From: Muricauda sp. SCSIO 64092
GTDB lineage: Bacteria; Bacteroidota; Bacteroidia; Flavobacteriales; Flavobacteriaceae
Direction of reading: 5' to 3'
Length of the DNA: 64,000 nucleotides
Assembly: GCF_023016285.1 (NCBI RefSeq)
Contig: NZ_CP095413.1
Location: 620,001-684,000, forward strand
Numbering within the stretch: the first letter of the stretch is position 1; each line of letters starts with the position of its first letter. The translations under genes and the position numbers were made by a program. Below the pieces are notes generated by a model that was not told the origin of the DNA, did no database searches, and saw only the letters and a program-made list of their open reading frames with translations. Positions 23,533 through 28,105 of this stretch are shown here, one piece after another.

Positions 23533-23595
23533 TTGTCATTCCTGTGAAAACAGGAATCCAAAAAAATAGATTCCGCATCAAGTGCGGAATGACAA
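23533..23595. repeat. Solo two-hairpin palindromic element between trpG and trpD
   Basis: 63 bases bounded by 10-bp inverted ends TTGTCATTCC (23533-23542) and GGAATGACAA (23586-23595). Inside are hairpin A, ATTCCTG/CAGGAAT (23538-23557), and hairpin B, ATTCCGC/GCGGAAT (23570-23590), separated by an A-rich spacer. The same A and B hairpins flank the GIY-YIG gene after trpB. It adds two strong stems to the trpG-trpD spacer without any T-tract. Confidence 0.88.
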
Positions 23596-23604
23596 AAAGA
23601 AAAA

Positions 23605-24597
23605 ATGAAAGAAACACTGAACAGACTTATCAATCACGAAATCCTGGCAAAGGAAGATGCCAAGCAAATCCTGGTAAATATTGCCAAGGGGCAATACAAT
23701 ACCAGTCAAATTGCCGCTTTTCTGACCGTTTACATGATGCGAAGCATTACCATTGAGGAGTTGGAAGGTTTTCGGGATGCACTTTTGGAACTCTGCCTGG
23801 CAGTGGATTTGAGCGATTATAACCCCATTGATCTCTGTGGAACGGGAGGTGATGGCAAAGACACGTTCAACATTTCCACTTTGGCCTCTTTTGTAACTGC
23901 CGGAGCCGGGATAAAAGTCACCAAACATGGAAATTATGGGGTTTCCTCCAAATGTGGAAGTAGCAATGTCATGGAATTTTTGGGCATCAAATTCAGTAAC
24001 GAGGCCGATTTTCTCAAAAAATCCATAGATGAAGCCGGTATCTGTGTATTGCATGCGCCCCTTTTTCATCCTGCCATGAAAAATGTGGCCCCCATACGAA
24101 GGGAATTGGCCGTAAAAACCTTTTTCAATATGTTGGGGCCAATGGTGAATCCGGCTTTTCCAAAGAACCAAATGGTGGGTGTATTTAACTTGGAACTGGC
24201 CCGAATGTATGGATACCTCTATCAGAATACGGATAAAAACTTTACCGTACTCCATGCTTTGGACGGCTATGATGAGATTAGTTTAACGGGAGCGACCAAA
24301 ACCATATCCAATGGTTCGGAAGGTATTTTGCAGCCCCGGGATTTTGGTTTGGAAAGCGTAAATGCAAATGCGATTGCTGGCGGTGAGGACGTTGCCGAAT
24401 CCGCGCAGATTTTTATGAACATTTTACAGGGCAAGGGAGTAGAAGCACAGAATAATGTGGTCTGCGCCAATGCTGGGATAGCCATAGCCACAGTGGAGGG
24501 CCTTGCGCCAAAAGAAGGATTTGAAAAAGCGAAAGAATCCTTGCTAAATGGCAAAGCGTTAAAAGCATTAAGGAAATTACAGGAGTTGAGTAATTAG
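23605..24597 (+). CDS. trpD: Anthranilate phosphoribosyltransferase
   Basis: 330 residues. Transfers phosphoribose from PRPP to anthranilate. Signature segments are DLCGTGGDGKDTFNIST (PRPP loop), VTKHGNYGVSSKCGSSNVMEFLG, and LLGPMVNP-like NMLGPMVNPAFPKNQMVGV. Complete and of usual length. It is the third gene of the operon, with a palindromic element before it and a minisatellite starting at its own stop codon (the G of TAG is the first base of the repeat). Confidence 0.97.
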   Translation: MKETLNRLINHEILAKEDAKQILVNIAKGQYNTSQIAAFLTVYMMRSITIEELEGFRDALLELCLAVDLSDYNPIDLCGTGGDGKDTFNISTLASFVTAGAGIKVTKHGNYGVSSKCGSSNVMEFLGIKFSNEADFLKKSIDEAGICVLHAPLFHPAMKNVAPIRRELAVKTFFNMLGPMVNPAFPKNQMVGVFNLELARMYGYLYQNTDKNFTVLHALDGYDEISLTGATKTISNGSEGILQPRDFGLESVNANAIAGGEDVAESAQIFMNILQGKGVEAQNNVVCANAGIAIATVEGLAPKEGFEKAKESLLNGKALKALRKLQELSN

Positions 24598-24672
24598 TTG
24601 TTGGTTGTTGGTTGTTGGTTGTTGGTTGTTGGTTGTTGGTTGTTGGTTGTTGGTTGTTGGTTGTTGGTTGTT
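24597..24672. repeat. 7-bp minisatellite (GTTGTTG)n between trpD and trpC
   Basis: Ten perfect copies of GTTGTTG plus six bases of an eleventh, 76 bases in all, starting on the last base of the trpD stop. A 7-bp unit is not a multiple of three, so any reading frame through it cycles. It is a likely hypervariable slippage site. Its effect on trpC expression is unknown. Confidence 0.97.
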
Positions 24673-25711: not shown

Positions 25712-26367
25712 AACTTAAAATATGTGGTCAAAAACATAATATTGCCGATGTGGCCGGTTTGCAACCGGATTACCTCGGTTTTATCTTTTGGGAACCCTCG
25801 TCCCGTTACTTTGATCATGAACCATCCCCACTACCCCCAGAAATAAAGAGCGTTGGGGTTTTTGTGGACGCCTCCATTGAAAACGTTTTGGAAAAGGTTT
25901 CAGCATATCATTTGGATGCCGTTCAGTTACATGGAAATGAAACCCCGGAATATTGCGCAAATCTAAAAAATCGTCATTCGGAACTTGTTTCGGAATCCCA
26001 AACCAAAGAATTTGACATCATAAAGGTATTTTCAATCAAGGAAACATTCGATTTTTCCATCTTAGAAGCTTATGAGAATTCCTGTGACTACTTTCTCTTT
26101 GATACCAAGGGAAAGCTGCCCGGAGGAAATGGCTACGCTTTTGATTGGGAAGTCCTGCAACAATACCCTTCAACCAAACCCTACTTTTTAAGTGGGGGCA
26201 TTGGATTGGAGAATGTAAATGAATTACGGAAATTCTTGGATACCGATACCTCAAAATACTGTTATGCCATTGATGTGAACAGCAAATTTGAAACGGAACC
26301 CGGATTTAAGGATATCAAAAAACTAAAAGAATTTAAAAAAGTGCTGGAAAATGAGTTATCACGCTAA
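25708..26367 (+). CDS. trpF: Phosphoribosylanthranilate isomerase with an in-frame repeat insertion
   Basis: 219 residues, slightly long for the family. Small TIM barrel with the catalytic Cys in KICG (residue 6), [26 protein letters not shown], and a late Asp in AIDVNSKFE. Residues 89-97 (RHSELVSES) are encoded by a palindromic repeat and lie in the loop after the LHG strand and before the DIIKVFSI strand, a place that tolerates extra residues. It overlaps trpC by 4 bases and trpB by 17 bases. It is presumably active, since the frame and core are intact. Confidence 0.94.
25972..25999. repeat. Half palindromic element inserted inside trpF
   Basis: The sequence CGTCATTCGGAA-CTTG-TTTCGGAATCCC forms an imperfect hairpin (7 of 8 pairs in ATTCGGAA/TTTCGGAAT). 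Its left end GTCATTC and right end GGAATCC match the ends of hairpin A of the elements at 23533 and 27537. It reads as RHSELVSES in frame, a peptide I know as a recurring translation of such bacterial palindromes. Confidence 0.8.
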
Positions 26368-27536: not shown

Positions 27537-27898
27537 TGTCATTCCTGCAAAAGCAGGAATCCAGTTCATGATAAAAAATGTCCATCAATATTATATCTAT
27601 ATCCTTACCAATCATAAAAACGGTACACTTTACATTGGAATGTCAAATGATTTGGAAAGAAGAGTCTTCGAACACAAAAACAAGTTAATTGAAGGATTTA
27701 CAAAAAAATATGGATTGAATCGGTTAGTATATTTTGAGGTTTATCAATATGTAAATGATGCCATCTTGAGGGAGAAACGGATTAAAAAGTGGAAAAGACA
27801 GTGGAAAATTGAGTTAATTGAAGAAGAAAATCCTGAATGGGATGATTTAGCACAAGATTGGTGTGACTAATGGATTCCGCATCAAGTGCGGAATGACA
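27537..27898 (+). mobile_element. Palindromic element carrying a GIY-YIG nuclease gene
   Basis: The ends TGTCATTCC (27537-27545) and GGAATGACA (27890-27898) are inverted repeats. The left end forms hairpin A, ATTCCTGC/GCAGGAAT (27541-27560), and the right end forms hairpin B, ATTCCGC/GCGGAAT (27874-27894). The nuclease gene fills the space between A and B, exactly where the solo element at 23533 has a short A-rich spacer. It begins five bases after the trpB stop. This looks like a complete copy of a small selfish element, with the 63-bp copy as its gene-less form. Confidence 0.75.
27568..27870 (+). CDS. Small GIY-YIG nuclease (URI-domain protein)
   Basis: 100 residues, a single GIY-YIG domain. 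The catalytic elements are visible: tyrosines in YYIYILTN (8-15) and TLYIGMSND (20-28), the arginines in LERRVFEH, and the glutamate in AILREKRIKKWKR. There is no DNA-binding extension as in homing endonucleases. It may nick at the flanking hairpins and drive element copying, but this is inference. It is in the same direction as the trp genes, so it is read through by the operon transcript. Confidence 0.9.
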   Translation: MIKNVHQYYIYILTNHKNGTLYIGMSNDLERRVFEHKNKLIEGFTKKYGLNRLVYFEVYQYVNDAILREKRIKKWKRQWKIELIEEENPEWDDLAQDWCD

Positions 27899-27934: not shown

Positions 27935-28105
27935 ATGACCACTCAAGACATTTTGACTGCAATTGGCTTAATAGGAATTGGTGGCTTATTAAAAAGCTTA
28001 ATCGATTACCTAATATCTAGCAAAAAACAAAAATTCGAAAGTAAACAATCCTATAATCAATTAATTTTTGTGATAAGGAGAAATTTTATAGGATATAAAG
28101 ACTAA
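27935..28105 (+). CDS. Small hypothetical protein, possible gene fragment
   Basis: 56 codons from ATG 27935 to TAA 28105. The N-terminal half is hydrophobic (ILTAIGLIGIGGLLKSLIDYLI) and the rest is Lys/Gln/Ser rich. I recall similar N termini in longer small membrane proteins of Bacteroidota, so it may be the broken start of one. It lies between the GIY-YIG element and trpA, with more AT-rich composition than its neighbours. No function can be given. Confidence 0.4.
   Translation: MTTQDILTAIGLIGIGGLLKSLIDYLISSKKQKFESKQSYNQLIFVIRRNFIGYKD

Follow-up and report, generated by a model that had tools for sequence, protein, structure and literature searches.

A one-domain GIY-YIG nuclease and the GTC-tagged palindromes around its gene probably form a cognate pair and, together, a mobile REP system. 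In our best reading, each clade of the nuclease serves its own GTC-tagged palindrome, and the window (the whole stretch of 64,000 nucleotides of Muricauda sp. SCSIO 64092 that was analysed) contains such an element twice, once complete and once empty. Support for this comes from the anatomy of the element, the association of gene and hairpins across bacteria, the matching of the two ends to each other and to the nuclease clade, presence and absence between relatives, inserts in hairpin loops and low dN/dS ratios. The element is not unique to the window; it is one lineage of a widespread system.

As read from the sequence, the window contains a trp operon in which the GIY-YIG element splits trpB from trpA. 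The features concerned are the following.

23533 to 23595, forward strand: A/B dimer without a gene, between trpG and trpD, TTGTCATTCCTGTGAAAACAGGAATCC-aaaaaaata-GATTCCGCATCAAGTGCGGAATGACAA, with an A-rich spacer where the gene stands elsewhere.
25972 to 25999, forward strand: CGTC-type palindrome inside trpF, in frame, CGTC-ATTCGGAA-CTTGT-TTCGGAAT-CCC, 7/8 pairs.
27537 to 27898, forward strand: complete element of 362 bp in the trpB-trpA gap, consisting of hairpin A, the GIY-YIG gene and hairpin B, with the TGTC tags outward.
27537 to 27563, forward strand: hairpin A, TGTC-ATTCCTGC-AAAA-GCAGGAAT-CCA, 8-bp stem and 4-nt loop.
27568 to 27870, forward strand: ORF of the single-domain GIY-YIG nuclease, 100 aa, from the ORF list and a PF01541 match.
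27871 to 27898, reverse strand: hairpin B, read on that strand as TGTC-ATTCCGCA-CTTGA-TGCGGAAT-CCA, 8-bp stem and 5-nt loop, adjoining the stop codon.

The preliminary description had placed a GIY-YIG gene between hairpins A and B, with a gene-less copy 4 kb away, and the sequence bears this out (27537-27898 and 23533-23595). It had also taken the ORF to be the only difference between the two copies. This is nearly true: hairpin B has the identical sequence in the gene-bearing copy and the solo dimer, but in hairpin A the uppermost stem pair shows a compensatory change of T-A to C-G, and one loop base differs. A repeat finder paired the B hairpins of the two copies as a direct repeat (34 nt, 94%); the tail of B in the solo dimer is CTA. 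The palindrome in trpF encodes the stretch RHSELVSES and is common to the two nearest relatives, being the same in G102 and diverged in G106 (RHSKLVPE). Two other features of the operon were noticed. Tandem GTTGGTT repeats follow directly on trpD (24597-24672) and overlap the beginning of an ORF that had no convincing family match, and a 56-aa ORF (27935-28105) stands between the GIY-YIG element and trpA. The latter was absent from the trpB-trpA gap of the congeners compared and had no match in Pfam and none among plasmids.

The hairpins recur elsewhere in the genome. The pattern TGTCATTCC-N10-16-GGAATC matched at 22 places in the single-contig genome of 5.69 Mb and nowhere in the backward control, so the repetition of the A/B hairpins is not due to chance; one of the matches, at 2077742, folds more loosely. 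The other genomic copies include A/B or B/A dimers, nested forms, and single or decayed ones, and two of the dimers (L028 and L030) share the spacer CCACARTATTTCCTRTGCGAATGGA. A second GIY-YIG copy in the genome, 83% identical, is likewise bracketed by hairpins. At G000:C1:3792715-3793723 (L103), tandem units of about 300 bp consist of a REP dimer and a 3' fragment of the GIY-YIG gene, and their copy number differs between this genome and G106. Two remote GIY-YIG genes, L007 (G000:C1:3375575) and L009 (G000:C1:2443997), lie, as judged by eye, beside apparent tRNA genes, a piece of which is repeated on the other side or further on.

In 100 genomes, A-type repeats were found at 150 places in 24 genomes, compared with none in the backward control of the same 100. 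Within 1.2 kb of each other, 12 neighbour pairs faced outward. Six of these were 46-56 nt apart and are empty dimers. Among the matches listed, five were 223-368 nt apart and each enclosed a GIY-YIG match (one of them broken), and the remaining pair, 1042 nt apart, enclosed a 236-aa ORF with GIY-YIG absent. Empty or nuclease-filled are therefore the only states but one among the 12 pairs. The hairpin consensus search and the table of spacers that had been proposed at the outset gave 22 genome matches against 0 in the control, and spacers that were empty or held GIY-YIG in 11 of 12 outward pairs in 100 genomes. That gene-bearing and gene-less forms belong together, as suggested, is strongly supported by an association far above controls, by cognate ends, and by empty and filled forms in the genome itself and its kin.

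Palindromes also appear to have entered palindromes. An exact-pattern search found inserts in the loop of hairpin A at 12 places in 5 of the 100 genomes; the backward control gave none. Two of the 12 are tandem hairpins and 10 are other sequence (L308 at G000:C1:1613725-1613773, L309-L312, L314, L315 and L317-L319), several of which are palindromic by eye and some GTC-tagged. In the genome itself, for example, the 4-nt loop of hairpin A holds GTGTCACCCTGAGCTCGTCCAAGGGAAG, which is similar to the palindrome next to another GIY-YIG gene (L256), and an insert in G088 is apparently doubly nested. These inserts suggest hairpin tips as targets, and such tips may be preferred for insertion. A looser scan for GTC hairpins with large loops at all loci examined gave 165, compared with 81, 91, 96, 104 and 127 for five shuffled tags; this excess was too mild to serve as evidence for loop insertion, and the exact-pattern search alone was used.

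Beyond the genus, our main sample comprised the 80 loci nearest to an Azospirillum protein, out of at least 579 confirmed relatives. By their titles these were mostly Proteobacteria, with some Bacteroidetes, Patescibacteria, Chloroflexi and others. The control ORFs were mechanical ORFs of 80-700 aa in the same loci, chance ORFs included, and were not curated genes. Under a strict rule, outward GTC hairpins stood on both sides of the gene in 39 of the 80 loci, on one side in 18 and on neither in 23, and on both sides of 5 of 1393 control ORFs. Hairpins matching each other on both sides were found at 41/80 GIY-YIG loci versus 2/1444 control ORFs (p 1.6e-55). An inverted-repeat score of at least 35 was reached by 60/80 loci versus 11/1399 control ORFs, and also by 72 of 636 random pairings of flanks from different loci, because the repeats resemble each other; the score was below 30 in 16 of the 80. 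Several of the 23 loci missed by the strict rule, for example in Bradyrhizobium, have longer, bulged GTC palindromes on both sides. GTC was the commonest outer triplet in this set (44 of the 68 loci with a repeat), compared with 18 of 142 control repeats (1784 ORFs). In Azospirillum the GIY-YIG gene splits sufB from sufC, much as trpB and trpA are split here.

In the plasmid collection, we examined 12 of 32 matches, with flanks within 300 bp. Clean outward CGTC hairpins on both sides were present in seven of the 12 records (Neisseria, Sinorhizobium, Azospirillum, Novosphingobium, Sphingobium, Neorhizobium and Shinella), with inward-facing hairpins in addition in the Neisseria and Azospirillum records. 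Two records had imperfect hairpins (Planktothrix and Spirosoma), one had hairpins of the same orientation (Aeromonas, L117), and in two, Photobacterium and Rhizobium K1/93 (L116 and L119), no hairpin pair was found. In the Planktothrix plasmid (L115), the GIY-YIG gene with its imperfect flanking repeats has an MmeI-type restriction gene on one side and drmA (DISARM) on the other.

At least 65 of 100 Flavobacteriaceae genomes have a relative of the GIY-YIG gene. Matching hairpins were found, in order of falling similarity to the window protein, at 5/7, 21/37, 12/34, 1/20 and 0/6 of 104 Flavobacteriaceae genes, and at 0/188 control ORFs of these loci. We had considered the two most remote clades (0/20 and 0/6 under the strict rule) as a negative control and rejected them, since many of their flanks hold imperfect, longer GTC palindromes. 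The palindromes in these flanks are GTC-tagged ones of other kinds, such as GTCACCTCGAGCGCAGTCGAGAGG or GTCATTGCGAG..GCAATCT. Among the 26 remote genes examined, GTC was the commonest outer triplet (13 of 20 repeats), and among the 78 near ones it came second with 27 of 60 repeats, after TCA with 28.

The hairpin at one end of a gene matches that at the other, and the hairpin type follows the nuclease tree. Where both hairpins were present (68 genes), the arms of 8 nt shared 6.85 positions between the two ends of one gene, compared with 4.56 between genes (0/2000 in a permutation test). The loops were 4 and 4 nt in 33 of these genes, 5 and 5 nt in 30, and of other pairings in 5, of which the mixed-loop element of the window is one. 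On a tree of 163 proteins (99 columns, with few deep forks resolved), the 5-nt-loop class required 17 changes versus 33.6 when shuffled (0/500) and the 4-nt-loop class 29 versus 43.9. The mixed-loop class, to which the window element belongs, was unclustered, with 9 changes versus 8.9. Among the matches listed, A-type repeats elsewhere in the genome were found in 8 of 11 genomes with a near-clade nuclease (best E up to 3.7e-36) versus 15 of 89 others (p 2.7e-4); this is a hand count that excludes, in the near-clade genomes, any repeat with a GIY-YIG match within 2 kb. The 15 genomes with A-type repeats and no near nuclease are as expected of non-autonomous copies. Another repeat type, TGTCATGCTGAA..TTCAGCATC, was found in 13 of 100 genomes (control 0), where many of its places adjoin GIY-YIG genes, and the hairpin of the GTCATGCTGAA type belongs to another nuclease clade. 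The preliminary description had staked its reading on the hairpins not being widespread without such genes, and on other genes of the family having them. The first holds in part: bracketing recurs (41/80), but A-type repeats also occur, among the matches listed, in 15 of the 89 genomes without a near-clade nuclease. To the second there are exceptions, as some family members have no recognisable pair (e.g. L116 and L119).

Between close relatives, the element comes and goes. The trpB-trpA element is absent from this gap in all 10 congeners, two of which have a TrpB that is 98-99% identical, and in four of the 10 trpB and trpA overlap. The orthologous gaps had been expected to give precise boundaries; the absence is clear in them, but the junctions between congeners are too diverged to fix the point of insertion. 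In G107 the gap contains the start of a different, broken GIY-YIG gene behind another hairpin, GGTCATGCTGAACTCGTTTCAGCATCTC. The empty dimer between trpG and trpD is present in one congener (G102) and absent in nine, and in G103 and G101 these two genes overlap, which is a plain empty site. The second GIY-YIG copy is common to G106 and G102, with one stop codon in each, and absent in G101 and G103; its outer flanks are too diverged between congeners to name a target duplication. Of the marks of a MITE or insertion sequence, terminal inverted ends are present, and no clear target-site duplication was seen at the junctions compared. The trpG-trpD gap of some relatives holds a second kind of small gene. 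In G106 (L092:1526-1882) a 23S_rRNA_IVP-type gene (PF05635, 3.1e-40), adjoining tandem GAGATGT repeats, stands where the window has the empty dimer, and similar sequence is found in the same gap of G104 and G107 (L096 and L098).

These comparisons bear on homing, in which the nuclease would cut empty REP dimers and its gene would be copied in by gene conversion, the REPs spreading by some other means. GIY-YIG is a classic homing fold, the protein gave a TIGR01453 match (7.8e-9, under the family cutoff), and the gene occupies precisely the spacer of a dimer that is also found empty. At neither of the gene-bearing sites compared (two) does any congener have the A/B dimer in its empty form, and homing leaves the clade-specific repeat types and the loop inserts unexplained. 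We therefore consider it unlikely, and prefer the palindrome itself as the mobile unit.

The nuclease is a compact protein. Pfam gave GIY-YIG (PF01541, E 2.8e-15) and T5orf172 only, and 2675 relatives were found at E up to 0.001, of which we examined the best 120; the phage collection had no match to the protein. Tyr11, Tyr22, Arg32, His36, Glu69 and Asn88, which we take to be the catalytic set of GIY-YIG enzymes, are invariant in a 40-row alignment. Homology to the Neisseria enzyme is borne out by invariant residues in an alignment and by 48% identity, over 91% of the query, to a Neisseria gonorrhoeae relative that lies among CGTC hairpins. A structure predicted from 40 sequences had a mean pLDDT of 93.5, and its sole structural match below E 0.001 was the UPF0213 protein 1zg2 (3.1e-4), followed by 1ywl (0.021) and then by chains of the branched-DNA nuclease Slx1 (0.03-0.3). 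By sequence, 1zg2 (1e-4) and 1ywl (0.021) were again the nearest solved proteins. dN/dS was 0.03-0.09 in eight of 10 sister nuclease pairs, these ratios being rough with dS above 1 in six of the eight; the other two pairs, one of which is the two copies of this genome, were saturated.

Such low ratios could also mean that the nuclease is useful to the host, for instance as a regulator of the uptake or recombination of incoming single-stranded DNA that bears the repeats, as is reported of Ssn, with the repeats as its targets and not its vehicle. The N. gonorrhoeae relative, embedded as it is in CGTC repeats, fits this idea. The patchy distribution among congeners, a stop codon in the G102 and G106 copies and the different, broken copy in G107 have rather the look of a short-lived selfish gene, and we regard this explanation as quite improbable. 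A role of the hairpins as ordinary terminators or in stabilising mRNA, or their pairing by chance, is hardly credible: REPs are common between genes, according to the available text of Di Nocera et al. (2013, PMC3733652), and the gene is co-directional with the trp operon, but a hairpin pair brackets only 0.1-0.4% of the control ORFs in the same loci, and a terminator is not expected to precede a gene, to bear a GTC tag that faces outward on either side, or to match its partner.

If palindrome and nuclease are indeed a mobile unit and its cognate enzyme, most copies would be gene-less REPs or dimers that travel as passengers, and the few gene-bearing dimers would be their source. The REP might fold as a hairpin in single-stranded DNA or as an extruded cruciform, where the nuclease would recognise the tag and the stem and nick there; the position of the GTC tag beside the stem suggests the folded single strand as the recognised form. 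GIY-YIG enzymes are not known to us to join strands, so the spread would need host repair or replication. After cleavage, these could carry a copy of the REP, or of the dimer complete with its gene, to new sites, among which other hairpins would be favoured. We infer, then, that the nuclease cuts its own REP and drives its spread by a single-strand route. More tentatively, and with somewhat less than even confidence, we suggest that the entire GTC/CGTC superfamily is moved by one-domain GIY-YIG nucleases, its missing mobilisers. Each nuclease clade would act on a stem-loop type of its own, gene-less copies would be moved as single-stranded hairpins and inserted preferentially at hairpin tips, and this would be a second, non-HUH route by which REPs are made.

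According to the available text of the 2013 survey that defined the CGTC palindromes, what moves them was left open (PMC3733652). A cognate nuclease inside a repeat dimer, type-matched across bacteria, is a concrete candidate for the mobiliser of CGTC REPs, and the question is now open to a simple biochemical test with one 100-aa protein and one 26-nt hairpin. If the proposal is true, it opens up a large reservoir of structure- or sequence-specific nucleases that come already paired in nature. The window element is probably a new member of an already known kind, and the valuable part is the link of the nuclease to the CGTC REPs. For a union of this nuclease family with the CGTC REPs in a single mobile system, no counterpart was found in the literature searched: by title and the start of the abstract, none of the PMC papers listed links GIY-YIG to REPs.

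Several known systems resemble the element in part. The gene of a GIY-YIG homing endonuclease interrupts the enzyme's target, within an intron or a conserved gene, and the enzyme has a separate DNA-binding domain. The window gene is intergenic and encodes one compact 100-aa domain, with TIGR01453 below the cutoff. The small GIY-YIG proteins of the UPF0213/YhbQ type (1zg2 and 1ywl) are the nearest solved proteins both in sequence and in structure, and we know of no repeat partner for them. Ssn was reportedly described in 2025 as a family of GIY-YIG single-strand nucleases with a repeated target in Neisseria, and is said to cut single strands and to modulate transformation, not transposition. 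The N. gonorrhoeae relative, presumably the Ssn protein, shares the one-domain GIY-YIG architecture, and because it lies among CGTC hairpins, the window protein is likely of the Ssn family. A repeated sequence is present in the genome here, as is said of the Ssn target; the role ascribed to Ssn differs, in that the window gene is part of a dimer that looks mobile and has relatives without a gene.

With RAYT/TnpA-REP and its GTAG REPs and REPINs, as given in the available text of Di Nocera et al. (PMC3733652), the element has in common an enzyme gene flanked by REPs, with gene-less copies elsewhere. The enzyme there is an IS200/IS605-like tyrosine transposase and the tag is GTAG, whereas the window protein matches GIY-YIG and T5orf172 in Pfam, has a fold nearest to UPF0213 and Slx1, and stands beside a TGTC tag.

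The CGTC REPs were defined in 2013 as apparently without a dedicated transposase (Di Nocera et al. 2013, PMC3733652). As far as the available text of that paper goes, they have an unpaired CGTC tag (or TGTC/CCTC) at one end, occur in five phyla, obligate intracellular bacteria included, and lie inside palindromes in other species, and no transposase gene flanked by them is reported. The window shares with them the CGTC/TGTC tag, a stem of 8-9 bp opening with A-T pairs, a loop of 4-5 nt and a CCA tail, as well as inverted dimers, hetero-dimers, intragenic copies and repeats nested in other palindromes. Both window hairpins have the TGTC tag along with the stem, loop and CCA tail, and they are repeated in the genome and form dimers. 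The difference is that the window dimer holds a GIY-YIG gene, where the available text of the survey (PMC3733652) has no flanked transposase gene. Because the 2013 search was directed at transposases, the association with GIY-YIG extends the CGTC-REP family and does not deny it.
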